NCBI GenBank assembly: GCA_002863065.1
Contig: PKDL01000067.1
Span: forward strand, 1-34,268
Direction of reading: 5' to 3'
DNA length: 34,268 bases
DNA from: Pseudomonadota bacterium
GTDB lineage: Bacteria > Myxococcota_A > UBA9042 > GCA-2863065
Part shown: positions 2,346 to 21,351 of the stretch, one piece after another
How the letters are laid out: each line of letters opens with the position of its first letter
How positions within the stretch are numbered: the first letter of the stretch is position 1
Made by a program: the position numbers and the translations under genes
Notes under the pieces: model-generated
Told to the model about the DNA's origin: nothing
The model's database searches: none
Seen by the model: only the letters and a program-made list of their open reading frames with translations

Positions 2346-2575
2346 ATATCGCGCTCCCATATCGCCGGTGGCTTTCGTTGCTTCGAGCCCTACAATACCG
2401 TCTCGCCGAAGTGGCCATTTACCCGCGGATATTTTAGGCAAGTCTTGTGCCGCCGTACGTTAGGCGTACACACATCAATAATCATCGATACTTATCTATT
2501 CTGCGCCGATGTGTAAACGTCTCTTAGGATGTGTCTTATATCGACATTCGTAAAATAATTTGTCATATTTTCACG

Positions 2576-5500
2576 ATGGCAGAGACATCTCGTTATCGGG
2601 TTATTCGCCCTCTGGGGGCCGGCGGCAGTGGGCGGATCTGGCTAGCTGAAGATACTAGTAGTCCCAAGCAACTGGTGGTCTTAAAGCGCTTGCATCCCAA
2701 TGTTGACATAGAGTTACTTTCGAAAGAGTACGACGTCCTCCGAAGCATATCCCATCCCCACATTGCTGAAGTCTTCGATTTTCAGCAGCAGGTAGATAAT
2801 GGACCGTTCCTAGTGGAGCAATACATCGACGGCGCTACCATTACGGCGTCGGTGAAAGATGCGCCAGTGGAGGTAAAATGGCGTGGGTTATGCCAGCTTC
2901 TGGGTGCGCTGGAGCATGTTCACTCAAAGGGGATTGTTCACGGGGATATCTCACCGGCTAACGTATTAGTATCTGACGTCGGCGGGCAGATTCATGCATA
3001 CCTTATTGATTTCGGATTAGCAGCGCGACTGAGCGCCGCAGATGCAGGTTATGGCGGGACGCCGGGCTATATGGCGCCTGAGGTGTATCGCGGCGAAGCG
3101 CGTACGCATCGGGCTGACCTATATTCGTTTGGTGTCTTAGCATACGAAGTGCTTGCTGGCTGCTCAGCGTTTCCTGGCACTGATAATGCGGTAATAATCC
3201 AAGCCCAACTCGCTGGGCAGACCGTGTCACCGTCCACTCATAACCACAGTCTTTCGGCGCGCGCGGATGCAGTGCTCTTGGCCTTATTGGAGCCAGAGCC
3301 GGCAGCGCGTCCGAAAACGGCGCGCGACGTCATGATTGAACTCGCTGCTGCATTAGAACTGGAAGTGTTCGACTCATCCAGCCAGACCTTAGAGGGTTAT
3401 ATGCGGTCCGCTCGGCTCGTTGGACGTGATTCGGTCATGGCAGCGAGTGCTAGGATGCGGAAGCAACTCTTCGGGAATACCCCCGGCGGGTCCCACAGCT
3501 CATTACTGTGGCTTCATGGTCCGTCAGGGTCCGGACGCACTCGTGTACTTAAACAGATTGCCGGGGATGCTCGAATTGATGGTGCCCGCGTAGTCATGGC
3601 TACTGAGGGGGTCGGTCCCTTCGATGGCATTATGACTTGGTTGAAAGGGGTCGGACACACCGATGTGCCATGGATGTCTGATTCGGAACCGTTGTCTCGC
3701 CTTGTAGCGTCTTTAGACGCGATTGTTGAAGCGGTGAAAGACACGCCTACAGTGCTCTGTTTTGATGATTTGGAGGTTGATAACTCACAGGTAACAGAGC
3801 TGCTGCGTATCTTTTCTGCGGTTATTGGAACGACAACGGCTCCCGGGTATCAAGGGCCAGTCCCTAAGTTAGCCATTGTAGTTACTGCCGGTGGACCGCC
3901 GCCAGAATCGATTGCACGTTATGGCTGTGTGCATTGTCATCCATTGCCGACATGGACCACTGATGAGCTGATGTCTTGGTTACAGGGACTCCTTCCACGC
4001 AAGACAGCGTTAGATAACAGCGTGGTGGACGCCATTCACCATCTCACGCTTGGGCGGCCTGGCTTCGTTGTATCTCTGCTCGGCTATTGGTCGAGACAGG
4101 GATTTCTGCGTCTAGCAAACGGAATGATCGAAGTCGAAGCCGACATACGGACTGCTCCAATACCAGGCACGTTAAGGCAGCTATTAGTCGAGCGGGAGAG
4201 TACACTAGAGTCGAACGAAGCGGAGGTACTCCAGGTAGTGCGTGTGCTTGAACGCCCCGCGATGTCATCTGTGATCGCTGCCGCGTTACCCGAGCTCATA
4301 AGAGACCAAGTCCCGAGTTGCCTAACCCGACTTGCAGATGCAGGCTTCCTCACGAAAATACCCAGTACGGCCGTGCATCCTACCTCATTGTATCACGCGC
4401 CAACAGGCGACTATGCAGTCGATAACGAGCGTCGCAAGGATATTTTTGCGGCTGCAGCCAGAGCGGTTATGTCGACAAGCAGCAGCAGTGGCGCCCCAGA
4501 GAGTAGCATGGCAATGCTAGCGCGCTTTGCATTCCGGGCGGTGGAATGTGGCGATACTCGTCTGAAAGCGGCCGGGTATAGGGCGGCGCGCGCGGCTCTC
4601 CTCGGCTGTCGTCAACGTCGCGAATTCAACCTCGTCCGTGAAATGTTATGCATAACGCGAGCTCTCGCCCCTGAAGGCGAGACCGCTAGTTGGACCTTGG
4701 AATTAGCAACGGACGCTATTCGCCAAGGTAAGCACCAGCTAGCCAGTCAGTACCTTACCGAAGTTGTAAATATGACGAGCGAGACGGATCCAGTTCGAAA
4801 CCAAGCGGTGGTTGCCATGGCTCGCATGCAATCTGATCTAGGCTCATACTCAGATGCTGTGAGCCTGGTAGCACGCGTCACAGAGGTAGCTGCCAAAGCA
4901 GTGGAAGCCCACGCACGAATGAGCATGGGTGAGTACGCCGCGGCAGAAGCCATTTGCGAAACAGCACTACAGAGCGTGTCTACTGCAGACGAAAAAGCGG
5001 AACTCCGAAATATCTTGGCCTTGGTGTACTACTACACTGAGCGGATGGACCTTGCAGTGGAACAGTTTGAGGCCGCTGCGGCTGCTTTTGGGGCATTGGG
5101 AGATCTTCCGCGGCAGGCTCAAGCGGTCACTGGAATTGGCCTCATACATCATCGTCGTGGTGCATTCGAACAAGCGCTTGCAGCGTATTCACGAAGTCTA
5201 GAATTGGCACAGCAGTCGGGCGATCGTCGGCGTATCACCATATCAAATATGAACATTGGTACCGTTCTCCAAGAGACGGGGCGTCTATCTGAGGCGGTCG
5301 AACAATACCGTAAGGCAGTGTATTCGGCAGAGCTTTTGGGAGACAGCGTGAGTGTGGCAAAGGCCGCGAATAATCTTGGGAATGTACTCGTGGAAATAGG
5401 CTCTCTCGCGGAAGCCGAGTGGTGGCTAACGCGCTCAATTGACGCCGCAAAGTCACAGAATGACCGCCTGCTGGGTGCCTATGCGCGAGGTATACTGGGG

Positions 5501-7738
5501 CGTCTGAAGCATCTTCAGGGGGATATTTCAGCCGCACGTGTGGAATTGACGACTGTAGCCGCCGAGCTCCGAGAATTAGGTACCCTTGGTGAATCCGGCG
5601 AGATATTGATCGAACTTGGGCTTGTTGCCCGTTCTGCTCATGACCCTGACGGTATGGATCATTTTGCTGCGGCGGTGGAGCATGCGGCGAAACATTCAGG
5701 AGCCGAAAAGCAAACAGCATGGGTGACATTTTTACGGGGGGAGGCACTACGCATTCGTGGTGAACCTGAAGCAGCTATGCGTTTGATTCGCGCAGCGTTG
5801 CAGCTTGCAGAGCAAACGAATGTTCGGAAATTATCCTGGAGATGCGATGCGAGTCTTGGTCGTATTTATCGAGAGCTGGGGAATGCGATGGAAGCACGTG
5901 CGCGATTCCACGCCAGCTCCGAACGTTTACTCACTCACGCTGGCACCTTAGAAGGTCGCTTGCGTGAGGCCTTTCTGTCGCTTCCAGAGCGTGCAGCTGC
6001 GCTGGAGGAAGCTCGGCTCGCGATGAGTGACTCTGGTACAGGTCCGGCACAGGCGCGTGAGAGTCAGGAGCGGTTGCTTCGGCTGATGGAAATTAACCGT
6101 AGACTTGCGAGCGAACGGTCGCCTAAGCGGTTACTTGAATTCATCTTGGATTCGGCAGTTCAGCTCACAGGAGCGGAGCGTGGCTTTTTGATACTGCGCG
6201 ATGATGAGGATGAAAAAGAGGATTCGAAGTTAAACGTACGGGTAGCAAGGAATATCGACCGCGAGAGCCTACGGCGAAATCCTGGACGAGTTTCTCGCTC
6301 GATCACTCGAGATGTACTGGAAACTGGCGAGCCTATTATCACCGTGGATGCTGGTGAGGACTCAAGATACCGGCATGCGGCTTCTGTACACCACCTTAAG
6401 CTTCGTTCGATACTTTGCTTTCCACTACGGCATCAAGGACGAGTAGTAGGCGCCATCTACTTGGATAATCGCTTCCAGGCGAGCACTTTTTCGGAACGGG
6501 ACCTTGATATTATTGGCGCCTTTGGCGACCAGGCTGCGGTCGCCATCGAGAATGCCTGGTTATTCGACTCAAGTGAAAAGGCGCGACTAGCACTAGAGGC
6601 AAGTCACAGTAAAATTGCAGCGCTGAATGGCCAACTGCAATCCAGACTTCAGGACCAAGCAGCGCGTCTTGCTCAGGTAGAAACCAACCTCGAGCGCCAG
6701 CGCAATCAGCTGGAAACACGCTACAGCTATGACAATATCATCGGAGCATCCGTACCGATGCGACGCATTTTCAAGGTCCTGGATCGTGTCACAGACACTA
6801 GCGTACCGGTCTTGGTCCAGGGTGAGTCTGGCACGGGCAAAGAGCTTGTTGCACGGGCGATCCACTATAATGGGGCACAGCGTCGTAATCGCGAATTCGT
6901 GTCTGTGAATTGTGCTGCATTGACAGAGACGCTCCTGGAAAGTGAGCTGTTTGGTCATGTGAAAGGTGCGTTCACTGGGGCAGATCGTGATCGAAAAGGG
7001 TTGTTCGAAGTCGCGGACAAGGGGACTCTGTTTCTCGATGAGTTGGCAGATATGTCATTAGGCATGCAGGCCAAGCTTCTGCGTGCGCTACAGGATGGCG
7101 AGGTCTGGCCGGTTGGAGCGCGGCGGTCGATCCGGGTAGATGTTCGCATTGTGGCTGCATGTAATCGTGACTTGTCGCAAATGGTGGAATCCAAGGAGTT
7201 CCGACAGGATCTTTATTTTCGATTGAATGTCGTAAAGATTGTCTTGCCGCCGTTACGGACCCGTGGTGAGGACCTCGTCATGCTCACGCAGCACTTTTTA
7301 CAGCAATTTCAGAAGAAACACCGTCGGGAGATACGTTTATCTCAGGGGGCACTTGATCTGCTCAGTCGGTTTTCGTGGCCCGGTAATGTGCGTGAACTTG
7401 AAGCCACGCTTACCAATGCATGTTTATTTTGCGACGGCGACTTGCTTACTGAAGCCCACTTTTCGCACAAACCGGAGCTGTTTGAGGATGACCAAATAAT
7501 CCGTGTACGTAATCCTGGGGATCGGCCCAGTCGTTTGGGACAGGAGCTTCTCGACCTTGGGGATATGACATTACGAGAGATAGAAGAACGTGCCATTCTG
7601 GCGGCGCTTGACCGATCGGATGGTAATAAAGTGGAGGCAGCGCGACGGTTAGGTGTGACGCGTCAGACGCTATACAACAAGCTGAGGTCGTACGGCATTG
7701 AGGTACATCGGCGGGTTCGTAGAGCCGACGCGGAATAG
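2576..7738 (+). CDS. Ser/Thr protein kinase - STAND/AAA ATPase - TPR - GAF - sigma54-interacting AAA+ - Fis-type HTH fusion regulator
   Basis: Kinase motifs GAGGSG, VLKRL, HGDISPANVLV, DFGLA, GTPGYMAPE; P-loop GPSGSGRTR; TPR-like repeats; GAF; second Walker A GESGTGKE, intact GAFTGA (HVKGAFTGADRDRKG), GTLFLDE; C-terminal NKVEAARRLGVTRQTLYNKL. Start chosen at MAETSRYRV (2576). Confidence 0.95.
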   Translation: MAETSRYRVIRPLGAGGSGRIWLAEDTSSPKQLVVLKRLHPNVDIELLSKEYDVLRSISHPHIAEVFDFQQQVDNGPFLVEQYIDGATITASVKDAPVEVKWRGLCQLLGALEHVHSKGIVHGDISPANVLVSDVGGQIHAYLIDFGLAARLSAADAGYGGTPGYMAPEVYRGEARTHRADLYSFGVLAYEVLAGCSAFPGTDNAVIIQAQLAGQTVSPSTHNHSLSARADAVLLALLEPEPAARPKTARDVMIELAAALELEVFDSSSQTLEGYMRSARLVGRDSVMAASARMRKQLFGNTPGGSHSSLLWLHGPSGSGRTRVLKQIAGDARIDGARVVMATEGVGPFDGIMTWLKGVGHTDVPWMSDSEPLSRLVASLDAIVEAVKDTPTVLCFDDLEVDNSQVTELLRIFSAVIGTTTAPGYQGPVPKLAIVVTAGGPPPESIARYGCVHCHPLPTWTTDELMSWLQGLLPRKTALDNSVVDAIHHLTLGRPGFVVSLLGYWSRQGFLRLANGMIEVEADIRTAPIPGTLRQLLVERESTLESNEAEVLQVVRVLERPAMSSVIAAALPELIRDQVPSCLTRLADAGFLTKIPSTAVHPTSLYHAPTGDYAVDNERRKDIFAAAARAVMSTSSSSGAPESSMAMLARFAFRAVECGDTRLKAAGYRAARAALLGCRQRREFNLVREMLCITRALAPEGETASWTLELATDAIRQGKHQLASQYLTEVVNMTSETDPVRNQAVVAMARMQSDLGSYSDAVSLVARVTEVAAKAVEAHARMSMGEYAAAEAICETALQSVSTADEKAELRNILALVYYYTERMDLAVEQFEAAAAAFGALGDLPRQAQAVTGIGLIHHRRGAFEQALAAYSRSLELAQQSGDRRRITISNMNIGTVLQETGRLSEAVEQYRKAVYSAELLGDSVSVAKAANNLGNVLVEIGSLAEAEWWLTRSIDAAKSQNDRLLGAYARGILGRLKHLQGDISAARVELTTVAAELRELGTLGESGEILIELGLVARSAHDPDGMDHFAAAVEHAAKHSGAEKQTAWVTFLRGEALRIRGEPEAAMRLIRAALQLAEQTNVRKLSWRCDASLGRIYRELGNAMEARARFHASSERLLTHAGTLEGRLREAFLSLPERAAALEEARLAMSDSGTGPAQARESQERLLRLMEINRRLASERSPKRLLEFILDSAVQLTGAERGFLILRDDEDEKEDSKLNVRVARNIDRESLRRNPGRVSRSITRDVLETGEPIITVDAGEDSRYRHAASVHHLKLRSILCFPLRHQGRVVGAIYLDNRFQASTFSERDLDIIGAFGDQAAVAIENAWLFDSSEKARLALEASHSKIAALNGQLQSRLQDQAARLAQVETNLERQRNQLETRYSYDNIIGASVPMRRIFKVLDRVTDTSVPVLVQGESGTGKELVARAIHYNGAQRRNREFVSVNCAALTETLLESELFGHVKGAFTGADRDRKGLFEVADKGTLFLDELADMSLGMQAKLLRALQDGEVWPVGARRSIRVDVRIVAACNRDLSQMVESKEFRQDLYFRLNVVKIVLPPLRTRGEDLVMLTQHFLQQFQKKHRREIRLSQGALDLLSRFSWPGNVRELEATLTNACLFCDGDLLTEAHFSHKPELFEDDQIIRVRNPGDRPSRLGQELLDLGDMTLREIEERAILAALDRSDGNKVEAARRLGVTRQTLYNKLRSYGIEVHRRVRRADAE

Positions 7739-8394: not shown

Positions 8395-9345
8395 GTGACG
8401 CTTCCAATCGACCGCATTCTTGATGCCCTTCACGAGTTTGAACGTGGCGTATTCCAACTCAATGGACCGGTTTCTCAAAGCGATATCAATGCATTAAATA
8501 CGCGACTTCCTCGTGAACTGCCTGTGATTTGGTCATCATTATTGATGCACCATGATGGGTTGGACCTACGTGGTGATCGGTATTTTGGTGCGGCGGAATG
8601 TCTTGCGCGTTGGGTACGTTGGCAACGCGATGAACTCCCCCGTTATGAAAAACAACCCGGTTGGCGGGGACAACCGCCGACGCAGCTCGTGCCGATCGCC
8701 ACCGATCTCGAAGGAAACCTGAAGTGCCTGGACCTATACACAGACCAGGTATGGGACTGGCATGGAGAGACTGGTCGGCTGACACTCTGGTTTACGTCAC
8801 TTGAGCACCTCGTCTTGTGCGCCCTGCAGTCATTATCACTCCGGTTCGACAAGGCTGGACGCCCTAAAGCGATGTCCTCGCGCCGGCAGAGCGTACTTGT
8901 GCGTGATGAATTGCTTATTCACGTCCAATTTGAGCCAGATTGTCCTTATGCCCAACTTGAATTAGGACGGTGGTTCGAGCAGTACGGCACGCCCGAAGAT
9001 GCGGTTGCTTGCTTCCGGAGAGCTGCCCAATCCTCGGTATCTACCGTGGAGGCTGCATTCGAACTCGGACGCTTCTGTATTACTCAAAAATGGTATGCAG
9101 AAGCGAGGAGGGCACTCCGAAATGCACTTGCAGTGCCTCCAGCTCCTAATCCGTTAGAGCACCAACCGCCCACCGGTATGCAGTATGCTGCACATCGACT
9201 CCTTGAGCGGCTTTACGCGCAGATTGGACAGTTGGCACTCGCCGATACTCAGAAGCAAGCTGCAGATAAGGCATTGAAGGAACACGGCTTGGGCTGGTAT
9301 GGGCATTCAGACGCTTTCAACCAAGCGCTGGACATTCTCAGATAG
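8395..9345 (+). CDS. SMI1/KNR4 (SUKH)-like N-terminus with C-terminal TPR repeats
   Basis: INALNTRLPRELPVIWSSLLMHHDGLDL...LVPIATDLEGNLKCLDL resembles SUKH; C-terminal repeats CPYAQLELGRWFEQYGTPEDAVACFRRAAQ; GTG start. Confidence 0.7.
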   Translation: MTLPIDRILDALHEFERGVFQLNGPVSQSDINALNTRLPRELPVIWSSLLMHHDGLDLRGDRYFGAAECLARWVRWQRDELPRYEKQPGWRGQPPTQLVPIATDLEGNLKCLDLYTDQVWDWHGETGRLTLWFTSLEHLVLCALQSLSLRFDKAGRPKAMSSRRQSVLVRDELLIHVQFEPDCPYAQLELGRWFEQYGTPEDAVACFRRAAQSSVSTVEAAFELGRFCITQKWYAEARRALRNALAVPPAPNPLEHQPPTGMQYAAHRLLERLYAQIGQLALADTQKQAADKALKEHGLGWYGHSDAFNQALDILR

Positions 9346-9797: not shown

Positions 9798-10673
9798 TCA
9801 GCGTTGGTATTCGGGTAATACAACTCCATCAGGCCACGCGGTACGATGTAATTTCAAGTATGCGGAGCGTCTGAGGCCCTCTAGGTATGCCTCACGGTTT
9901 TGCCTGACGACGCGTGGACAGAGTTCCGCCAGCACCTCCGCCCGGACTTGGTGGTCATCAAGACCTTTCGCAGCAGGGGCCTCGTATTCAATCAGTAGCG
10001 GTACTCGGATTGTGCCTGGTGTCGTGATGAACGCTGCCTCTCCGGGGCCGAGTCGTTGGAGTGCTTCAGTCAGTTCTCTTGGTGCACTGGATTCTCCCGA
10101 TTCACTCACATGGAGCGTATATTGCTGGAATCGAATGACACCTGGGGGGTGCTTCGCGGACAGCCAGAGAAGGTGCAGTTCATCGGCAGCGGTGAGTATT
10201 TCTACCAGTGGACCCCAATGTGTTTCTGCCCATGTGGTGAGTGGCAACGCGCACCCGAATGACGGATCCCAGCAATGCAGGGTAAGTTCCGCAAGCCGGT
10301 AGAGGTGCCCATGAACGAATCGAGGTCGCATGGCTTGGTACATGAGCTGTAAGTCTCTTTCTTTCAGGCGTCCGCATACGACCCGTTCAGAGACGACATT
10401 GTTGAGAAACGCCTCCGCGCGTGCCGCTGGTTCTGTCGGAAGATTTGGCACAAGCCCCGACTGCCTCGCCTCCTGTAAAAGCAATACGCGATTTAGTAGT
10501 GTCCGGAGGGCGTCCAATTGCGCTTTTGGACCTTTGGCCTCGCGTGCCGCCTCGGCTATCTCTGAACGGCGGAGCTGTCGAAATCCGACCTCTAGTGCGA
10601 CGGGATCGTCTATCGGTGGGCTTTGGAGTGCCGAGACCGCAGTCAGAGCACTCATGAGAAGTGCTAGTTGCAT
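9798..10673 (-). CDS. exported protein resembling SurA/PpiC-type periplasmic foldases
   Basis: Signal-like N-terminus (MQLALLMSALTAVSA), basic helical segment, C-terminal parvulin-like LTEALQRLGPGEAAFITTPGTIRVPLLIEYEAP; weak motif match only. Confidence 0.5.
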   Translation of the reverse strand: MQLALLMSALTAVSALQSPPIDDPVALEVGFRQLRRSEIAEAAREAKGPKAQLDALRTLLNRVLLLQEARQSGLVPNLPTEPAARAEAFLNNVVSERVVCGRLKERDLQLMYQAMRPRFVHGHLYRLAELTLHCWDPSFGCALPLTTWAETHWGPLVEILTAADELHLLWLSAKHPPGVIRFQQYTLHVSESGESSAPRELTEALQRLGPGEAAFITTPGTIRVPLLIEYEAPAAKGLDDHQVRAEVLAELCPRVVRQNREAYLEGLRRSAYLKLHRTAWPDGVVLPEYQR

Positions 10674-11242
10674 CCACCATCTGCAGTATTGACTATTAGC
10701 CGTGGGGCAATGCGGATTGAAAGCTGTTCAGGTTGTTCATCCGCCTTCACGTCCATGCGCAGCTGCCAAGGGGTCCCAACGCGATATACCGCAGTGAGAG
10801 CCTCGTTAGCTTCTGCAGCAATATCGATCGCCGTGTCGCTAAACAGGGTTTGATTTTGACTGGCCTCCAGCGTCCCGGCCCAGGTGAACATCGGCGATTC
10901 GACTGTGTCACCTACGATGACCGCCGTGAGCTCGAAGGATCCGCCGTTACCACCTTGAACCGAATTTACCGCAGTAAAGCTGTTGTCTACATCGATCTTC
11001 ACACATTCCACCGCGCCCTCTACTTCTGAGAATCCAGGTGTATCATCAGGCGAGATGGTGGCGACTAAGGAGCTTTTACCGGCGAAGGGGGCATCTATCC
11101 GGATATCTAGATCGACACCTTCGACCACAGTGGCATCGCCGCATGCCAGAGCAAAGAGGGAATAACAGATTAGGCTTAGACCACGAGCATAGTGGCTGAA
11201 TACAGATATCTGATTGGGAGATAGGGGGATTTTTCTTTTCAT
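10664..11242 (-). CDS. predicted lipoprotein of unknown function
   Basis: SLICYSLFALACGDATV lipobox; overlaps the start of the downstream gene by 10 nt, suggesting an operon. Confidence 0.65.
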   Translation of the reverse strand: MKRKIPLSPNQISVFSHYARGLSLICYSLFALACGDATVVEGVDLDIRIDAPFAGKSSLVATISPDDTPGFSEVEGAVECVKIDVDNSFTAVNSVQGGNGGSFELTAVIVGDTVESPMFTWAGTLEASQNQTLFSDTAIDIAAEANEALTAVYRVGTPWQLRMDVKADEQPEQLSIRIAPRLIVNTADGGCN

Positions 11243-11329
11243 CTTTACTCTCTAAATGGCTCCAGAAAATTACCATGCAAGCGATCTGATTGGAATCGTC
11301 GCCTTGCGACAGTTACACTCCGGATTACC

Positions 11330-13108
11330 GTGTTAAAGCATACCTACCGTCTTTTGGTCATTACTGCGGCGTTGAACGTTTCATGCCTCATATCCTGCGC
11401 GGAGCCAAACGGCCCGGTGTCGTCTGTGCTACTCACCCAAGGAGAGACGTATACTCGCATTGGAACATCCGAAGGAGAATCATTACGGCTACAAATCGAT
11501 GCCGATGCCGGTTGGATTGTACGTTTTAGAGCATGGTCTGTGGGTGTCCTTGCGGGCGTTGAGGTCACAATTAAGAACGCCAATGAAGAGGTCGTCTACC
11601 AGGATACAGGTCAGGGAACAGAGCTGCGCGTAGACGGCTTTAGAGTGGTGACGGATGGGCTGTATACGGCGACAGTTCGATGGCTGGAAGGTAGCGGAGT
11701 AGCCGGATACAGGTTCGATGTAGTGGGTTTATCGAGTGATCGCCTTCAGGTACAATCCAGACCCTCATTGAGCACGCCCCTTGCGGGACACCGGGCTGTG
11801 CTATTACCCGACGGACGCTTGTTAGTCACAGGGGGCCATACTGTGGGTTCAGGCCTCGCTGCCGGTCAACTTATTCCGGTCGCCACCACCACGCTCATCA
11901 ATCCTGAGACGGGCGAGTCGGGCCCAGGTCAACAGATGCTTGATGCGAGGGCGTACCATGCCACGGCAGTATTTCCTGGCGGCCCTTATCAGGGGCAAGT
12001 CCTCATTGCGGGGGGGCTTGGTACTGCGGGAGATGCCCTCATTACCACTGAAATCTTCAATCCCGAAACCGGAGACTTCACGCGTGGTCCTGATTTACCA
12101 GAGCCTCGAGCCTATTTGGATGCTCTGCCAATACGTGTGCCTTTAGACAGTGAACCATTATTCCTGGATAACAACATTGTGTTGGCTTTCGGAGAACGCA
12201 CACGGCGAGGACCGCAGCATAGCTTTGCTGACGGGCTCTACTCAGAAGTAGACGAGAATCGCCGAGAAATTTGGCGTACTGACGGGGAGGTCGTGCAGCG
12301 CATATCCAACGGCGACAGTGCTGCCTTGCTTGAAACCGGGCGCTTGTTCGGCCGTATGGTGTTTCAGCCATCTTCGCGTTCCATCATGTTCATTGGAGGG
12401 GGAATCGATACGATTCCGACGGCAGCGGGATGTCAACAAGCACCGAATAATGTCTGCCACTGTACGAGTGCAGAAGTCCCGCTTTGTACCGAATTCAGTG
12501 ATTGCCAGGATGGTCAATGCGAAACGATTCGAAGCTATACTAGGAAAGACCTGGCCACCGATGTTGTCGAGGTGCATCGCGACGGTCAGAGATTTACGCT
12601 GCCACCTTCAGGTCGTCTCAACCGCGCTCGTGCAGCCTTCGGTATAGCTCAACTATCTGGAGACCGTGTTTTGGTGGCTGGCGGTGTGTCTGCTGTGCGG
12701 CGTAATTTTTGGGCCAACGAAGCCAGGTTGATGGAAGCACCGGATACTATTGACTCTGTCGAATTGTGGACGCCGAGCGATCCGGCGTCTGGCATTGATG
12801 GGACGTGGCGAGTATTGCTTCCATTGTCAGTTCCCCGAGAACACTTTAGTCTCGCGTTACTTGCGGATGGCGGCGTATATGCCATTGGGGGCATGACTCC
12901 TATGCCAGGGGGACACCGGGGGGTGGACCTCATCGAGCGGTATGATGACGATATATTGCGATTCATACCGGTCGGGAATTTGGTACGCGGTCAAGCGGCA
13001 TCACAGGTCATACTAACTGAAGATGCACGAGAGGCCTGGCTCCTTGGTGGTGAGGCTCGGAATGTGCCTTCAAATTCGATTGAGACAGTGACTCTGCTGA
13101 GCGAATAA
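11330..13108 (+). CDS. Kelch-repeat-like predicted lipoprotein
   Basis: MLKHTYRLLVITAALNVSCLISCAEP signal; repeated AVLLPDGRLLVTGGH, GQVLIAGGL, DRVLVAGGVS, GGVYAIGGM motifs. Confidence 0.8.
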   Translation: MLKHTYRLLVITAALNVSCLISCAEPNGPVSSVLLTQGETYTRIGTSEGESLRLQIDADAGWIVRFRAWSVGVLAGVEVTIKNANEEVVYQDTGQGTELRVDGFRVVTDGLYTATVRWLEGSGVAGYRFDVVGLSSDRLQVQSRPSLSTPLAGHRAVLLPDGRLLVTGGHTVGSGLAAGQLIPVATTTLINPETGESGPGQQMLDARAYHATAVFPGGPYQGQVLIAGGLGTAGDALITTEIFNPETGDFTRGPDLPEPRAYLDALPIRVPLDSEPLFLDNNIVLAFGERTRRGPQHSFADGLYSEVDENRREIWRTDGEVVQRISNGDSAALLETGRLFGRMVFQPSSRSIMFIGGGIDTIPTAAGCQQAPNNVCHCTSAEVPLCTEFSDCQDGQCETIRSYTRKDLATDVVEVHRDGQRFTLPPSGRLNRARAAFGIAQLSGDRVLVAGGVSAVRRNFWANEARLMEAPDTIDSVELWTPSDPASGIDGTWRVLLPLSVPREHFSLALLADGGVYAIGGMTPMPGGHRGVDLIERYDDDILRFIPVGNLVRGQAASQVILTEDAREAWLLGGEARNVPSNSIETVTLLSE

Positions 13109-13193
13109 AATTAATTGACCGTTAGGAGGAAGATTATCACGGTAGCTCACGGACCCATTTGATATCTTTACACATACTGCTAACCTTCTCGCT

Positions 13194-14936
13194 GTGCGAA
13201 TCATGTCCCAATGCCGACGACTCCAACCGATCTCTTTCAGGTGGTCCATCGGGTTGATGTTCGCGACACTTTTTTGCGCATTGCCGTCCACGGCAGAGCC
13301 GCTTCGGATAACCATCGCGTTGGACCTCCATAAGGATGCCGCTGACTTCTCGTTGCGCCAGTCCTTTCGTCCCTTGTTCGAATCGCTCCAGAATGATGAC
13401 TTAGTTGGTATTTGGGCGATTGCTCCCGAAGAAGAGCAAATTCATCCGATTTCACCGGGAGACCAAAGGGAGTCAATGGCGCGTTCAGTTCAAAGAACGT
13501 CGCTTCGAACTCGGCCACGAGCATTGCTGCAAACTGTCGATGTAATGATGAATCACGTACAGCAGACGTTCGTAGAAAGCGGTCTAGACGGAAAACGGGT
13601 GATGATTCTCTTATCGTCCGGTCCTGATTCGAGTTCCATGCAAGCAGGCGAGCTACTCGAACTACTCCGTGCAGCTCAAGTAGAAGTTCACTCAGTCTTG
13701 GTAGGCCCCCGCGCTGCTCCCGTCGCTGAGACATTGGCTCGCGAGACCAAGGGACGCGCCTATCGAGCGTCATCGCCCGCGGATGTCGAGAGCCAGCTTG
13801 CGGCATTAGTTGCGAGCCTGGGGCGCCTGCGCCGGGGCGAACCTCAGGCAGTACAACCAACGCCTGAAAACCTTGAGAAAGAACCCGCGAGTACGGACCT
13901 GCCGGGTACACAGACGCCTAAATCAGCAGCCGTTGTAACTCACGAACCTCCTGCCGACACCCCCGAAGGTGTTGCGGCTGGCGCCAACACAGATTCTGAT
14001 TCGGATGCAGAATCGCAACCGTCGAGGACCTACAAAGATGTACTCGAAGAGACGCGTGATTCTACCCAGACTCCATCCGAAGGCTCGAATGCATACACGG
14101 AGTCAGCAGATAGCGCGGAGAGTGCTGCCGATGATTCCGGTAAATCCTGGCTCCTGTGGTTTGGTTTGAGCCTGTTGCTCCTCGCGACGGTAGCGGCCTT
14201 TCTTTGGTGGAGGAAGTCAACGGAGCCAGCTGTTGAATCCGAGATAGCCCCGCCTGAACCTGCCCTACCTGTGGTGAATTACCACCAGTATTTCAGCACG
14301 GGTACAGGGAGCGCGTCCTCATCTGTCGGAGCCAATAGAGAGGCCACATTCACTCCACTATCACTGGGAGCACAGTTCACTGTTCGTTGCGATAAATCTG
14401 TCACGCGTATTGGCCGAAAGCCGGACAACGATATCGTGTTGGAGCATAGTGGCGTTTCAGGTCACCATGCCGAACTGCAATGGCGTAATGGCTCATTATA
14501 TGCGGTGGATCTGGGTAGTACGAACGGAACGTACCTAGATGATTTGCGAATCGAAGAGCAAGCACTCATTTCGGGGCAAGTACTGCGCTTCGATGCGATC
14601 GGTTTTCAAGTATCTGTGACCACAGAACATGCTGCGACGCCGGCACAATCTGCTCCTCAGAGCATTGAAGATAAGACCATGGTGCTGAACGCGGATGATC
14701 CGATGCTTCTCGAAATGATAGAGTCTTCGCAGCCGTCGGAACCCGTTTTAGAGGCGACGGCGATGATCGACTCCCTGGACGAGATGGAAATACGTCACCA
14801 CAAATGCCTTCGTCATACTAATCGAATTGCTCATGATGTCTGCAGCATTTGCACGCGTCCATATTGCTCCGAGTGTCTGGTAGAGGTAATGGGCGACCTT
14901 GTTTGTTCGAAGTGTCGGGCGGTAGGTCATGTCTGA
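13194..14936 (+). CDS. vWA-like periplasmic domain - TM helix - cytoplasmic FHA domain - C-terminal B-box-like zinc finger protein
   Basis: Signal peptide (LMFATLFCALPSTAEP), vWA-like LRITIALDLHKD...KRVMILLSSGPD, TM WLLWFGLSLLLLATVAAFLWWRK, FHA ITRIGRKPDNDIVLEHSGVSGHHAEL...DLGSTNGTYL (first residues VTRIGRKPDNDI), zinc finger CLRHTNRIAHDVCSICTRPYCSECLVEVMGDLVCSKC. Confidence 0.85.
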   Translation: MRIMSQCRRLQPISFRWSIGLMFATLFCALPSTAEPLRITIALDLHKDAADFSLRQSFRPLFESLQNDDLVGIWAIAPEEEQIHPISPGDQRESMARSVQRTSLRTRPRALLQTVDVMMNHVQQTFVESGLDGKRVMILLSSGPDSSSMQAGELLELLRAAQVEVHSVLVGPRAAPVAETLARETKGRAYRASSPADVESQLAALVASLGRLRRGEPQAVQPTPENLEKEPASTDLPGTQTPKSAAVVTHEPPADTPEGVAAGANTDSDSDAESQPSRTYKDVLEETRDSTQTPSEGSNAYTESADSAESAADDSGKSWLLWFGLSLLLLATVAAFLWWRKSTEPAVESEIAPPEPALPVVNYHQYFSTGTGSASSSVGANREATFTPLSLGAQFTVRCDKSVTRIGRKPDNDIVLEHSGVSGHHAELQWRNGSLYAVDLGSTNGTYLDDLRIEEQALISGQVLRFDAIGFQVSVTTEHAATPAQSAPQSIEDKTMVLNADDPMLLEMIESSQPSEPVLEATAMIDSLDEMEIRHHKCLRHTNRIAHDVCSICTRPYCSECLVEVMGDLVCSKCRAVGHV

Positions 14937-16641
14937 ACAACCTATCGCTTTGGCGGTGATCATTCGCACTGGTCGGTACTCTGGTCAGCGGTACCGGATT
15001 TTTGATGGGATGGTAATTGGTCGCGGTTCGCAAGCGCATGTCTACCTGCCTGATAGCAAGGCCTCGCGCCGGCACGCGGTAATCGCGGTCGGCGAGGAAG
15101 GTGTGCATCTGAACGATCTTTCGAGTCACAATGGCACGTGGGTCAATGGAGAACGCGTCACAGACCGCGAGTTGCAGCATACGGATATGATCCAGATTGG
15201 CGAGAGTCGCTTAGAAGTGGTCGCCGACTCGGTCCACGCGCCGATTTCTGATGCTATTGCTCCGCCGACGATTGTTCTCTCCGCTCGGATGGAGCGACCA
15301 CCGACGCTGGATGAGGTGGAAAGCGAGCAATTTCTCACGTCGGAAGGTCTCCCCACATCGCTCGAAATTGAATCGGGTGATCGCAATGCAGCCAGTGTTG
15401 CACTGACGAAAGCACGTCACTACGCGTTGGTGGTTGCGGTGGCGCGCGCGTTGGGTGCGGGGTTACGGGTAGACCAGATCATTTCACGCTCGCTCGACCT
15501 CCTGCTTCGAGTCATCGGCGGTGATGCTGCATATGTCGTACTTGTAGATCCGGCAACTGGTAACCTCATCCCGCATTCCGGACGTGGTCAAGATGGTGGG
15601 GATGTCCAATTCGAGGCCAGCTCCGGTGTTCTAGAGTGGGTGGTCAAGAATCGCACTGCCGTGGTGTCATCGAACGCGACTGAAGACGATCGATTCAATC
15701 AGCAGCGGTCTGTAGTGCTCCTACAGATGGGTTCATTTATGGCGGCTCCAATGCTGCTTGGCGACCGCGTGCTTGGCGTGGTGCAACTTGTCGATAATAC
15801 CGGGCGCAGCGGGTTTTCTGACGAGGCATTAGAGCTTCTGCGTGTCATCGCACCGGTGCTGGCGACTGCCCTAGAAAATGCTCAGCTAATCGAGTTGAAA
15901 GAAGACACGATTGAGCAATTACAGCTCGCTCACGAAAAATTGATTGATACGCAGCGGCAGCTCTTAGAACGTGAGCGCATGGCCGCTCTGGGTCGATTCT
16001 CGAGTGGGTTGGCTCACGAGGTAAGGAACTTGATGGGTCCGTTTATGCTCGCCGATTTATTGCGAACCAAGTATCCGGAAGACAGCGAGTTGCAGGAAGT
16101 TACCCACCTTATGACTGAAGCCTATGAGCGTATCGCTGCAGTTGTGGAAGAAACCAGGCAGCTCACGAAGGGTGAACTCGGGCAAAAGCTCAACCTGACT
16201 GAAGGCAGCATGGATGAAGTCGTACACTCTGCGGTCCGGCTGGCGCAATGTGATGCGAGAACCCGGGCCCATAATGTCAGCATAGACATCCCGGAGCACG
16301 CTGATTTTCAATTCGATGTCGGTCGAATAAAGCAAGTTCTGCTCAATCTCATTCGTAATGCGAGTGACGCTATGGTGGAGCCTGGTGAAATAACGGTCGC
16401 TGCACGCTACGACGTGGAGCAGGATGTCGTATTGGTGTCTGTCCGCGATACTGGATGCGGTATTCCCGAGGATCAGATAGCGGAGATATGGGAACCTTTC
16501 ATGACCACTAAGGGCCAAGAGGGTACCGGTTTGGGACTGGACTTCTGCCGAGCGATTGTCGAAGCGCATGAGGGGCAAATACGTTGTGAATCAGTCGAGA
16601 GTGTAGGCTCTACATTTGTCTTCAGCTTGCCCTTGAAATAG
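14929..16641 (+). CDS. FHA-GAF sensor histidine kinase
   Basis: FHA (GRGSQAHVYLPDSKASRRHA...LSSHNGTWVNG), GAF, H-box GLAHEVRNLMGP, N-box NLIRNASDA, DTGCGIP, GTGLGL; overlaps the upstream stop by 8 nt. Confidence 0.93.
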   Translation: MSEQPIALAVIIRTGRYSGQRYRIFDGMVIGRGSQAHVYLPDSKASRRHAVIAVGEEGVHLNDLSSHNGTWVNGERVTDRELQHTDMIQIGESRLEVVADSVHAPISDAIAPPTIVLSARMERPPTLDEVESEQFLTSEGLPTSLEIESGDRNAASVALTKARHYALVVAVARALGAGLRVDQIISRSLDLLLRVIGGDAAYVVLVDPATGNLIPHSGRGQDGGDVQFEASSGVLEWVVKNRTAVVSSNATEDDRFNQQRSVVLLQMGSFMAAPMLLGDRVLGVVQLVDNTGRSGFSDEALELLRVIAPVLATALENAQLIELKEDTIEQLQLAHEKLIDTQRQLLERERMAALGRFSSGLAHEVRNLMGPFMLADLLRTKYPEDSELQEVTHLMTEAYERIAAVVEETRQLTKGELGQKLNLTEGSMDEVVHSAVRLAQCDARTRAHNVSIDIPEHADFQFDVGRIKQVLLNLIRNASDAMVEPGEITVAARYDVEQDVVLVSVRDTGCGIPEDQIAEIWEPFMTTKGQEGTGLGLDFCRAIVEAHEGQIRCESVESVGSTFVFSLPLK

Positions 16642-16644
16642 TTC

Positions 16645-16929
16645 ATGGCGTTGCCGAAAAGACCAACATTCTTGCGACGGTCCGCGATGGCACATAGGCT
16701 CGCTTCGGCTTATAGCGTTCTTCTTGTGCTGGTGTGGTGTAGTTGCCAAGCTGTCACGGATGCGGAGTGCATATCGGTTTGCACGCATCTGGAGCACGTA
16801 TATGAGCGGCCCTATCGGCGGTGCCAGGCGCATTGCAAAGGACATGGGCAGCGTAAACGACTAGAGTGCTTAAACACGGCGGCTTCGAAGCAAGATGTTC
16901 AAAACTGTATGCCACAAGATGCTCGTTGA
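16645..16929 (+). CDS. small Cys-rich exported protein with twin CX3C motif
   Basis: Hydrophobic N-terminus (SAYSVLLVLVWCSC); CISVC-X13-CQAHC-X10-C-X12-C; 3 nt after the histidine kinase stop. Confidence 0.6.
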   Translation: MALPKRPTFLRRSAMAHRLASAYSVLLVLVWCSCQAVTDAECISVCTHLEHVYERPYRRCQAHCKGHGQRKRLECLNTAASKQDVQNCMPQDAR

Positions 16930-17359
16930 TTGCTCTCCCAGGGCGCATTTGCGAATCATCGCCGTCATTATTACGACGAGCGCCTGTGTCGGGGGCTGTA
17001 AGCGAGTTCCGAGTGAGCGGGTCTTCGTGCCGCAGGCTATGTCAGCTATCGAGGCAGGTAAGAAGCGCAGTCAGACACAGCATAAGAAAGAGCGGACGGA
17101 AGAACTCGGCGATCTGTGTATGCGGGCATGCGACAACTGGTTGGACCATCAGTTTGTTGTGCCGGTGTCATACGATGACCAGAGGGAGTCTCTACAGGAA
17201 GTGGTGGACAGCGTCATAGAATCGCAGCGGCAAAGGAACCGAGATACCTGTGTGTCGGAATGCCAGCGCCGTGCTGACCGTCCCAAAGCGCGCTGTATTG
17301 CCAGTGCGCCGAGTATTCTTGATATCGATGACTGTCGCTTTAAGCGACAACAAAGATGA
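16895..17359 (+). CDS. Cys-rich predicted lipoprotein with the same CX3C-X10-C-X12-C C-terminal motif
   Basis: LRIIAVIITTSACVGGCKR signal; CMRAC...CVSEC-X10-C-X12-C; alternative start ATG at 16919. Confidence 0.65.
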   Translation: MFKTVCHKMLVDCSPRAHLRIIAVIITTSACVGGCKRVPSERVFVPQAMSAIEAGKKRSQTQHKKERTEELGDLCMRACDNWLDHQFVVPVSYDDQRESLQEVVDSVIESQRQRNRDTCVSECQRRADRPKARCIASAPSILDIDDCRFKRQQR

Positions 17360-17456
17360 TGCACGACCTACTCAACCGTTGATCGCTAACTGTTCCGTTA
17401 TGCGTACCTCAAAAGATTCATTGATCATGGGCTGAGAAATCGTTAGCGTCCCGCGC

Positions 17457-18167
17457 ATGTCGAATCATCGCCATACCCCCCATTGGATTGCTGCCCTCGG
17501 TTTACTCATAACAATTGGGTTTTACACGCAGGCAGCATCGGCAGGGCTGGCAACATACGATTCTGGCCGAACCAAGTACCTTGTGTACACGCCGAAATCC
17601 TATACAGCAGACAAGGAGCTCCCTGCAGTCTTCGCATTCCACTGGTCTACCGGCCGAGCGCAGAGCATGCTGAAGCTGTGGCGTGAGACCGCGGAGCGGT
17701 ATGGGTTCATACTCGTTATACCAAACGCCAGACATCGCATGCGCTGGACCAAACGCGACGCAGCTGACGTTCAAGGTATCTTAGGCTCTGTCATTGAGAA
17801 GTACTCAGTGGATATATCCAGGCTGTATGCCACTGGCTTTTCTAGCGGGGCCAATTTTACCTACCGCGTACTGGTAGAAAACCCTGGTGTATTCCGCGCC
17901 GTCGGACCCTTTGGCGGTCGACTCGTACATCGGACCCAAGCGTTTGGCTCCTTCACTAGTACCGCAGACACCAGAATTTGCGTGTTTCATGGCACACGCG
18001 ATAAAACCATCAACCACAAGCATGCCAGAAGGGCGCGGACACGACTCCGCGCACATGGATTTGAAGTCGTCGAGCGGGACTTCCGGCAGGGGCATTGGCT
18101 TCCACGCGAATACGCTGACGACATGTGGCAGTGTCTTGACGGGATACATCACGACGGCGAGAGCTAG
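17457..18167 (+). CDS. secreted alpha/beta hydrolase, PHB depolymerase/feruloyl esterase-like (COG3509/LpqC-like)
   Basis: Signal peptide; nucleophile elbow GFSSGA; FHGTRDKTI (Asp) and QGHWLP (His) contexts. Confidence 0.8.
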   Translation: MSNHRHTPHWIAALGLLITIGFYTQAASAGLATYDSGRTKYLVYTPKSYTADKELPAVFAFHWSTGRAQSMLKLWRETAERYGFILVIPNARHRMRWTKRDAADVQGILGSVIEKYSVDISRLYATGFSSGANFTYRVLVENPGVFRAVGPFGGRLVHRTQAFGSFTSTADTRICVFHGTRDKTINHKHARRARTRLRAHGFEVVERDFRQGHWLPREYADDMWQCLDGIHHDGES

Positions 18168-18192
18168 CACTAAGCGCTAGCAGGGTCGACCG

Positions 18193-18222
18193 CTTCTCGT
18201 CGCCGGGCCAGACGACGAGGAG
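18193..18222 (+). promoter_or_regulatory. 10-bp stem-loop overlapping the Shine-Dalgarno of the acyl-CoA ligase gene
   Basis: CTTCTCGTCG (18193-18202) pairs with CGACGAGGAG (18213-18222), including one U.G pair; 10-nt loop; GAGGAG SD is inside the 3' arm, ATG at 18230. Confidence 0.55.
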
Positions 18223-18229
18223 AACGCAT

Positions 18230-19777
18230 ATGCCCATTCTAGAAAGCCAGTTCAGCATGCCAGCTGTGCCTGAACACACCATCACAGAGCACGTCTTACG
18301 TCACGTAGAGACCCTTGGAGCCAAAGCGGCCTTTATCGATGGGACGAGCGGGCGGACGGTCACGTATGCTGAGCTTGCCGATCAAATACGTGCACTCGCT
18401 GGTGGACTGCAAGCGCGCGGTATTGGCCCTGGGACTACTTGGGCTCTCATGGCACCCAATATTCCAGAATATGCTATTGTATTTCATGCATTAGCGTACT
18501 GCGGCGCCACCGTCACTACACTCAACCCCACCTACGGTGCCGAGGAGATCGCTTTCCAATTGAAGGATAGTGGTGCACAAGCAATTGTGACTGTGGGCAT
18601 GTTTCTTGAGACCGCGCGAACAGCTGCTGACATCGCTGGAGTTGACCAAGTGGTACTGCTCGGGCCGGGGGATGGCACTCCAATTACGGAGTTTTTTGGG
18701 CAGCCCTTGACCAAACAAGTTCCTGTCGATTTACGTCGTCACGTGGTGGTGCTCCCCTACTCATCTGGAACGACAGGTTTTCCCAAAGGCGTCATGCTGT
18801 CTCACTATAATCTCGTGGCAAATGTAGAACAACTGGCGGGCCACTTGCCTTTGGCATCGGATGAGATCGCATACGCCGTATTGCCGTTCTTCCATATTTA
18901 CGGGATGCAAGTTCTCATGAACTTCATGCTTGCGAGAGGATGCTCCGTAGTAACAGTGCCGAGATTTGACTTACCGCAAATGCTCCAACTGGTACAAGAC
19001 TATAAAATTACGAGACTATTCTTGGTGCCGCCTATTGTATTGGCACTCGCAAAACACCCTGTTGTCGATCAGTACGACTGCTCCAGTGTAAAGCAACTCT
19101 TCTCTGGGGCTGCTCCGCTTGGCGCGGAGGTTGCGGAAGCTGCGGCATCGCGATTGGGCTGCAATATTGCTCAAGGATACGGCATGACCGAGCTGTCTCC
19201 AGTATCGCACGCTATTCCTGAAGATGACTATCGGGCCGGATCAGTAGGTACCCTCATCGCAGGCACAGAAGCGCGCCTGATCGACCCAGAAACAGGCGCA
19301 GATGCGGAAGAGGGGGAGCGAGGCGAGATTTGGGTTCGGGGCCCTCAAGTCATGCTCGGCTATCTAAATAATACTGAGGCAACACGGCATACAATTGACG
19401 CCGAGGGCTGGTTGCATACGGGCGATATCGCATATGTCGATTCCGACGGACATACGTTCATTGTCGATCGCATGAAAGAGCTCATTAAGTACAAAGGATT
19501 TCAGGTGCCTCCTGCTGAGCTCGAGGCCTTACTTTTGACGCATGCTGAGGTGGCTGATGCGGCAGTGATTGGGGTGCCGGACGAAGAAGCGGGGGAGTTA
19601 CCCAAAGCATTCATCGTACGAACGTCCGGCAGTGCCATTGATGCGGATGCGCTCCAAGCGTTCGTAGCGGGTCATGTGGCGAGCTATAAACAAATCAGAA
19701 TCGTCGAATTTATCGATGCCATCCCGAAATCTGCATCTGGGAAAATTTTACGACGCGAGCTCCGAAGGCGCGATTAG
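18230..19777 (+). CDS. AMP-dependent acyl-CoA synthetase, 4-coumarate-CoA ligase-like
   Basis: PYSSGTTGFPKGVMLSH, QGYGMTELSP, GWLHTGDIAYVDSDG, IPKSASGKILRRELR. Confidence 0.93.
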   Translation: MPILESQFSMPAVPEHTITEHVLRHVETLGAKAAFIDGTSGRTVTYAELADQIRALAGGLQARGIGPGTTWALMAPNIPEYAIVFHALAYCGATVTTLNPTYGAEEIAFQLKDSGAQAIVTVGMFLETARTAADIAGVDQVVLLGPGDGTPITEFFGQPLTKQVPVDLRRHVVVLPYSSGTTGFPKGVMLSHYNLVANVEQLAGHLPLASDEIAYAVLPFFHIYGMQVLMNFMLARGCSVVTVPRFDLPQMLQLVQDYKITRLFLVPPIVLALAKHPVVDQYDCSSVKQLFSGAAPLGAEVAEAAASRLGCNIAQGYGMTELSPVSHAIPEDDYRAGSVGTLIAGTEARLIDPETGADAEEGERGEIWVRGPQVMLGYLNNTEATRHTIDAEGWLHTGDIAYVDSDGHTFIVDRMKELIKYKGFQVPPAELEALLLTHAEVADAAVIGVPDEEAGELPKAFIVRTSGSAIDADALQAFVAGHVASYKQIRIVEFIDAIPKSASGKILRRELRRRD

Positions 19778-19812: not shown

Positions 19813-21351
19813 TTACCGCATACGGTGTGTGCGTTGTACTCGGCCGACTGAACGGGGAAATGGCGCGGTAAAATGCATAGTGATTAGGAAAAGGCTCGCG
19901 GAGATGGGGCCTAGCATGCCTGCTAATACGAATAGTGCGGGTCCTCCGGATACGTCTTGGTGCAGGTTGAATGCCTGTACGGTTGTCAGGACAAAATCGG
20001 TAAGGGTTGTGCCCGCTAGGAAAAGAGCTCCTGACCGTGCGATGGGTTTACCTCGCCACGTCAGCCATCCGAGTACCGCGAGGGCGATGGCCAGAAATGC
20101 ATCGAATGCTACCCACGCATTTTGAATACTCTCGTCGCCAAACCATCGGCTTCCGTCGGCAAGCGCAAGCAGGATGGTCCAGGGGACAAGCAGGCCTGCT
20201 AATAGAACTAGCATGATGGCCCAGTATCGTAGAGGAATGCGCCGGAGCATTCGGCGCATTGTATCGACCACGAAGCTCGCTAGCCCGCCACCTGCGAAAG
20301 CATCAAGTACTGCATGTATTGACGATATCGTATGACCCGATGGACATTGCACGATAAATTGCGAGGTCCACAATTCGGGTTTGAACCTGGCTTTGAACTG
20401 TCGCAGCCCATTAAAGCGATAAAATGGTTCTCCATGGCGTCTAAGCTGCTTGAGTAACCAGATCAGGACCGGGCGTTCGACCCTTGACTCTTCAATGCCG
20501 GCTAGGGGCGATAGACCAAGCGTGACCCAATCTTCTCCGGATGCTTGGGCGTCTTTCATTGCTGTGTGGATGAGCAGTTCAATGGTTCCATTTGGCGCAT
20601 CTGGCACGCGGATCACATCTTCAAAAAACCATCCTTGGCGTGCATAGACCGGGATTGCTGCGAGAAAACCGACGGCTCGTGAACCGGCCTCTGCCACGTA
20701 ATATCGTCGCTCGGCAGCATGGTGAAATGGCTGTAGATCGACGAGGAATCCGAGGCTACTCATTTGTCGACTGTTGAGCCAGCGCTCCAACACGTCGGCG
20801 ATTTCGGTACGTGTGGATGGTTCATTCAGTTCACTAGGAGTCAACCGGCGGATGGTTACTCCCTTGTTCAGTGCCCGATTACACTGCTGGCGTACGGTGC
20901 GTTTTTCTGGACTATTGAGCTCCCAGCCGCGTGGGTTCCATTCTGGTTGTTGGCCTATTGGTATTAGTCCGAAGTTGAAATCAGGTAGCCCCTCAATGGC
21001 GGAGATAAATCGCGCATCCGCACAAAAGAATAGGACGCGAAAGCCTGCTTCCATTGATTCTCGAACAAAACGTTGGCTGACCTGAGCGAGATGGTCGGGG
21101 GGGGCGACTGGAATACCTGCTACTGCTCGGTATCGACCTGCCTGGACCCAAGCAACTACCGCAGGCGGCCCGTTGTCGAGAGCATAGAACCAGTATTCGT
21201 ATCGCGGCTCCAAGATCTGGAAAGATGTCGCATGATCTCCATAGGCCCGTAGTGACTCCAAGACAGTATCATGATGAATATTCAACGTTGTGATTAGGAC
21301 CTCATTGCACTCGATATCGTCGAACCTGCCAAATCCCGGGATGGTAATCAA
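19813..21351 (-). CDS. DUF2156 / phosphatidylglycerol lysyltransferase C-terminal-like domain with C-terminal TM helices
   Basis: GNAT-like MprF C-domain features (YYVAEAGSRAVGFLAAIPVYARQGWFFEDVIR, FYRFNGLRQFKARFKPEL) followed by multiple hydrophobic helices. Confidence 0.8.
   Translation of the reverse strand: MITIPGFGRFDDIECNEVLITTLNIHHDTVLESLRAYGDHATSFQILEPRYEYWFYALDNGPPAVVAWVQAGRYRAVAGIPVAPPDHLAQVSQRFVRESMEAGFRVLFFCADARFISAIEGLPDFNFGLIPIGQQPEWNPRGWELNSPEKRTVRQQCNRALNKGVTIRRLTPSELNEPSTRTEIADVLERWLNSRQMSSLGFLVDLQPFHHAAERRYYVAEAGSRAVGFLAAIPVYARQGWFFEDVIRVPDAPNGTIELLIHTAMKDAQASGEDWVTLGLSPLAGIEESRVERPVLIWLLKQLRRHGEPFYRFNGLRQFKARFKPELWTSQFIVQCPSGHTISSIHAVLDAFAGGGLASFVVDTMRRMLRRIPLRYWAIMLVLLAGLLVPWTILLALADGSRWFGDESIQNAWVAFDAFLAIALAVLGWLTWRGKPIARSGALFLAGTTLTDFVLTTVQAFNLHQDVSGGPALFVLAGMLGPISASLFLITMHFTAPFPRSVGRVQRTHRMR

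Follow-up and report, generated by a model that had tools for sequence, protein, structure and literature searches.

The closest described systems each share some part with the locus analysed here. In the T6SS, PpkA carries a vWA domain outside the cytoplasm and Fha reads phosphothreonine on TssL (PMC3224232, PMC3953482). GarA, OdhI and FhaB present the FHA fold with its phosphothreonine residues, and the hybrid histidine kinases EspA and EspC of Myxococcus, in the same phylum as the genome studied here, combine FHA with a histidine kinase. Among small exported Cys-rich proteins, Lep of Leptospira helps LipL41 express and assemble (PMC8951592, PMC3861479), and LipL41, its client, is reported to bind haem (PMC3861479).

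The locus resembles these systems in its parts and departs from each of them in its arrangement. Its vWA/FHA protein shares with PpkA and Fha a vWA-like domain outside and predicted FHA phosphothreonine reading inside, but unites both on one protein, has no Ser/Thr kinase domain and has no recognised T6SS genes nearby. It has the FHA fold and phosphothreonine residues of GarA, OdhI and FhaB but is membrane-anchored, with a vWA-like domain and a zinc finger. Its kinase, unlike EspA and EspC, has a GAF domain and no receiver domain in an otherwise different architecture, and scored 148.9 bits against the EspA profile, whose cut-off is 1400 bits. The kinase and the vWA/FHA protein with its partner gene are both new arrangements of familiar parts.

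Layout of the locus

The window, i.e. the whole stretch of 34,268 nucleotides that was analysed, comes from an uncultured bacterium of the Myxococcota type and contains four packed plus-strand open reading frames at 13194-14936, 14929-16641, 16645-16929 and 16895-17359. Their coordinates were confirmed in the sequence. The first two genes overlap by 8 nt, 3 nt separate the second from the third, and the last two overlap by 35 nt, which bears out the close packing described in the original prediction. We divide the genes into block A, which also includes an upstream kelch gene, and block B. The features are as follows:

9798 to 10673, minus strand: SurA/parvulin-N-like exported protein, divergent neighbour of block A (assigned by eye; no Pfam family over the cut-off)
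10664 to 11242, minus strand: small lipoprotein of unassigned family, divergent neighbour (homologue in place in G002)
11330 to 13108, plus strand: kelch-repeat lipoprotein, lipobox LISC, gene 1 of block A (Pfam kelch; orthologues in G001 and G002)
13194 to 14936, plus strand: vWA-TM-FHA-zinc-finger transmembrane protein of block A (Pfam, G001 orthologue, fold search)
13302 to 13835, plus strand: its periplasmic vWA-like domain, aa 37-214 (PF00092 in the G001 orthologue; vWF A1 fold matches from a low-confidence model)
14151 to 14207, plus strand: its single transmembrane helix (hydropathy; helix in the model)
14403 to 14591, plus strand: its FHA domain, GR, S and NG residues intact (profile and residues)
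14805 to 14915, plus strand: its B-box-like zinc finger, C-x2-H-x8-C-x2-C-x4-C-x2-C-x9-C-x2-C (sequence; ligands conserved in G001)
14929 to 16641, plus strand: soluble FHA-GAF-HisKA-HATPase histidine kinase of block B (profile matches)
15013 to 15201, plus strand: kinase FHA domain (profile)
15469 to 15876, plus strand: kinase GAF domain (Pfam)
15988 to 16635, plus strand: kinase core of ZraS/AtoS/NtrB type, phospho-acceptor H363
16645 to 16929, plus strand: short exported six-Cys protein, module C42-C88, first loop shortened
16895 to 17359, plus strand: six-Cys lipoprotein, lipobox VGGC, module C75-C147, four helices
17457 to 18167, plus strand: secreted PHB-depolymerase-like esterase adjoining block B (convergent there in G001)

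An Rfam search of 10600-18300 gave no match, a promoter and terminator scan of 11200-17600 gave fewer matches than shuffled sequences did and so was uninformative, and none of the four proteins matched the PADLOC defence families. Profile matches to Endothelin (P0003) and GluQRS (P0004) were judged to have arisen by chance. Elsewhere in the window, 8395-9345 (plus strand) encodes an SMI1/KNR4 (SUKH-1) domain followed by TPRs, and 19813-21351 (minus strand) an MprF-type phosphatidylglycerol lysyltransferase C-terminal domain accompanied by extra TM segments, which were recognised by reading.

Gene neighbourhoods in related genomes

The original prediction had proposed that the four genes form a single envelope-signalling operon, in which the Cys-rich proteins and the vWA domain sense outside and FHA-phosphothreonine contacts inform the kinase. 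Tight packing, a matching topology, intact FHA residues and two conserved threonines (Thr495 and Thr522) in the linker of the vWA/FHA protein are all consistent with it. We compared this proposal with the gene neighbourhoods of relatives. The four genes were found together in no other genome searched; no co-conservation beyond close relatives was recovered, an outcome that the original prediction had itself named as refuting it. Kinase orthologues occur in 24 of the 53 class relatives and strong Cys modules in 12 of the 53, and the two sets overlap in only 3 genomes. One four-gene conserved system is rejected on the strength of these neighbourhoods.

The separation is seen directly in G001, the nearest genus having both the vWA protein and the kinase (G000 being the window's own genome). 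There, an upstream kelch lipoprotein gene runs into the vWA gene, its stop overlapping the vWA start, and this pair lies apart from the kinase, whose preceding gene encodes a mannosyltransferase-like protein and not a vWA protein. Upstream of kelch stand a protein gene and a lipoprotein gene, both divergent, as in the window: homologues of the 9798-10673 product occupy the equivalent position in G001 and G002, and a lipoprotein was recognised by reading at the G001 position equivalent to 10664-11242. In G002 the kelch gene and both divergent neighbours are kept, and directly after kelch the contig breaks off; the vWA domain of G001, used by itself as query, recovered no copy from G002, a negative result that the contig end could explain. 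Kelch with the same divergent neighbours is hence present in three genera (G000, G001 and G002), and the full-length vWA protein only in G000 and G001 among the 379 phylum genomes searched. The kelch lipoprotein belongs with the vWA block, and the boundary first drawn was too narrow.

On the other side, the kinase gene of G001 is followed by two genes for Cys-rich lipoproteins, after which comes a homologue of the window esterase. This linkage crosses a contig break within the kinase gene, where the two contig ends overlap by 17 nt. A lipoprotein orthologue occurs in G002, in which no close kinase was found. Two gene orders are kept in two genera: the kinase ahead of two Cys lipoproteins, and kelch ahead of vWA/FHA. 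Because the vWA protein and the kinase are separated in G001, we conclude that the window joins two separate blocks, one made of kelch and the vWA/FHA/zinc-finger protein (block A) and the other of the histidine kinase and two six-Cys lipoproteins (block B). The adjacency of two FHA proteins is not remarkable by chance, since the draft genome holds 30 FHA domains.

The original prediction was therefore right on the parts (domains, export, intact FHA residues and packing) and wrong on the unit. Having the vWA protein and the kinase apart in G001, we consider the single operon an unlikely explanation. Nothing outside this genome supports a physical coupling of the two blocks. Here alone, their adjacency might allow Thr495 or Thr522 of the vWA/FHA protein to be read by the kinase FHA domain, and we assign such direct signalling a low probability. 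The explanation that we favour, at about even confidence, is that two independent blocks abut: a probable phospho-adaptor (A), and a soluble kinase gated through its FHA domain and accompanied by Lep-like envelope lipoproteins (B).

The kinase and the six-Cys lipoproteins of block B

The second FHA domain had been placed on a soluble-looking histidine kinase, and this assignment was recovered by profile searches. FHA, GAF and HATPase_c (2e-26) all scored over their cut-offs; HisKA reached 21.0 bits, just under its cut-off of 26.9, with the phospho-acceptor H363 intact in AHEVRN. The N, G1 and G2 boxes are also intact (NLIRNA, DTGCG and GTGLGL). Of the GR, SxxH and NG signature residues, R32, S46 and N68 of the kinase FHA domain are invariant in eight orthologues, and the corresponding residues of the adaptor FHA domain are R408, S422 and N444; the two domains scored 71.0 and 72.1 bits, respectively. 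Both FHA domains carry intact phosphothreonine-binding residues, from which binding itself is predicted. A small ligand at the GAF domain and phosphothreonine bound at the FHA domain would probably gate the kinase, which may hand its phosphate to an unlinked regulator.

A scan of named genomes with the kinase returned few close relatives, all of them uncultured bins. In most of the kinase neighbourhoods that were inspected, the majority from family f5, MlaD-type transporter genes adjoin the kinase, together with NAD kinase where tested. At L085, L079, L087 and similar f5 loci, the kinase orthologue is flanked by NAD kinase on one side and by divergent Mla-type ABC/MlaD genes on the other.

Both small proteins of block B have export signals by sequence, the 16895-17359 product being a lipoprotein, and the Cys motif that they had been said to share proved to define a family. 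An alignment of 24 modules gave the motif CX3C..CX3C-X8-10-C-X12-C with six invariant cysteines. Leave-one-out profiles recovered all family members, and a profile from which f1, the taxonomic family of the window proteins themselves, had been left out still matched both of them (2.6e-10 and 1.2e-6). Both also scored above shuffles preserving the Cys positions, which provides sequence support beyond Cys spacing. The family was found in 51 of the 379 phylum genomes, about one in seven. Its typical member among the inspected loci is a short lipoprotein of about 100 residues, and members usually stand alone. Some proteins contain repeated modules, with as many as three in tandem in G008. In G027, a 1195-aa open frame (L143, 3-3590, plus strand) ends in two six-Cys modules and also carries OmpA and VWD domains.

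AlphaFold modelled the Cys module as four helices, with pLDDT above 90 over most of it. Pfam matched no six-Cys member, and a sequence and fold search of the PDB with the module returned nothing significant. Mitochondrial small Tim proteins likewise carry two CX3C motifs in helices (twin CX3C), but the six-Cys module adds another two Cys, is built of four helices and matches no fold in the PDB, and small-Tim kinship was rejected as a resemblance in motif only.

The family can be compared with Lep (TIGR04464) and with Lepto_8Cys and Lepto_4Cys, which are small exported Cys-rich proteins too and which gave weak reciprocal profile matches. One six-Cys module matched TIGR04464 at 6e-4, and others matched Lepto_8Cys and Lepto_4Cys at 0.002-0.05. 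Conversely, when the 53 genomes were searched with TIGR04464, six-Cys loci came out on top (G005:C659 at 8.8e-5 and G020:C66 at 0.064). The best of these matches, 24.5 bits, stays below the curated TIGR04464 cut-off of 60 bits; all matches to Lep and Lepto profiles lie under NCBIfam cut-offs, and the window's own two Cys proteins did not match the Lep profile directly. Moreover, the six-Cys family differs from Lep in belonging to another phylum, its scores fall well below the curated cut-offs and no LipL41 counterpart was identified. The relation is a weak lead offered by sequence profiles, not membership.

By this distant kinship, the six-Cys helical disulfide lipoproteins may act in a Lep-like way, as small partners or chaperones stabilising an envelope protein; Lep, the one distant relative of the family that has been characterised, serves an outer-membrane lipoprotein as chaperone. 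A broader proposal, that they form a widespread class of Lep-type envelope proteins in Myxococcota, acting as dedicated chaperones or assembly partners, with their level set in the present family by the co-encoded FHA-gated kinase, is speculative and we judge it improbable. Should the Lep-like role be true, it would define a class of envelope helper proteins and give a first handle on many Myxococcota hypothetical proteins. Of all the parts of the locus, the six-Cys lipoprotein family has the most to offer for further study.

The surroundings of some members suggest another role. At L146, L147 and L148 (G021, G013 and G017, respectively), six-Cys genes lie near cytochrome c maturation genes (by Pfam in G013 and G021, by reading in G017), and an ECF sigma factor gene is nearby in G021 (Pfam) and G017 (by reading). 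Next to a third six-Cys protein of the window's own genome (G000:C147; L238, 2031-2360, minus strand) lie genes for a rhodanese-domain protein and, by reading, for an MscS-type channel. The lipoproteins could then be redox or metal proteins of the envelope, and the kinase a reporter of thiol or haem stress, roles to which the maturation genes, the ECF sigma factor of G021, the rhodanese gene and the reported haem binding of LipL41 (PMC3861479) would lend some colour. Many family members have other neighbours, however, no conserved CXXC or haem-binding CXXCH motif appears in the module alignment, and structural disulfides are a better fit for six invariant paired Cys. We find the redox or metal explanation doubtful and retain the Lep-like role in the favoured reading.

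The kelch lipoprotein and the proposed adaptor of block A

The reading of the 13194-14936 product as a periplasmic vWA-like domain, one TM helix, a cytoplasmic FHA domain and a zinc finger was supported, its vWA part through the G001 orthologue and a low-confidence fold. Pfam did not match a vWA domain in the window protein; the G001 orthologue, which aligns over the full length, matched PF00092 over the Pfam cut-off (E 9.4e-8), and the fold search with aa 37-214 pointed to vWF A1 domains. The MIDAS metal site DxSxS is absent, being replaced by DLHKD in the window and DTDKT in G001. Hydropathy indicates one TM segment near aa 320. The C-terminal finger (C538-C574), of the CHCC/CCCC kind, has no Pfam match, and all eight of its ligands are conserved in G001 as read from the sequence. 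Thr495 (DKT) and Thr522 (EAT) are conserved in a cytoplasmic linker that is otherwise variable.

Its sequence features make block A a probable transmembrane phospho-adaptor. Outside, the kelch propeller may contact the non-metal vWA domain, or the two may bind a ligand in the envelope; inside, threonine-phosphorylated proteins would be recruited by the FHA domain and the finger, Thr495 and Thr522 being themselves putative phosphorylation sites. A T6SS threonine-phosphorylation control unit, with the vWA/FHA protein in place of PpkA and Fha, is highly improbable: the outside vWA domain of PpkA and the reading of TssL phosphothreonine by Fha (PMC3224232, PMC3953482) offer a parallel and the genome has a sheath gene, but this gene lies on another contig, no T6SS gene was recognised near the locus and Pfam finds no kinase domain in the vWA protein.

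Two further observations were made around block A. The interval that separates kelch from vWA contains a strong Shine-Dalgarno-like AGGAGG at 13124-13130, and no usual start codon follows it at a suitable spacing. Upstream in the window, the 1735-aa product of 2531-7738 (plus strand) combines Ser/Thr kinase, AAA/TPR, GAF, sigma-54 activation and Fis-type HTH domains and might phosphorylate threonines recognised by the FHA proteins.
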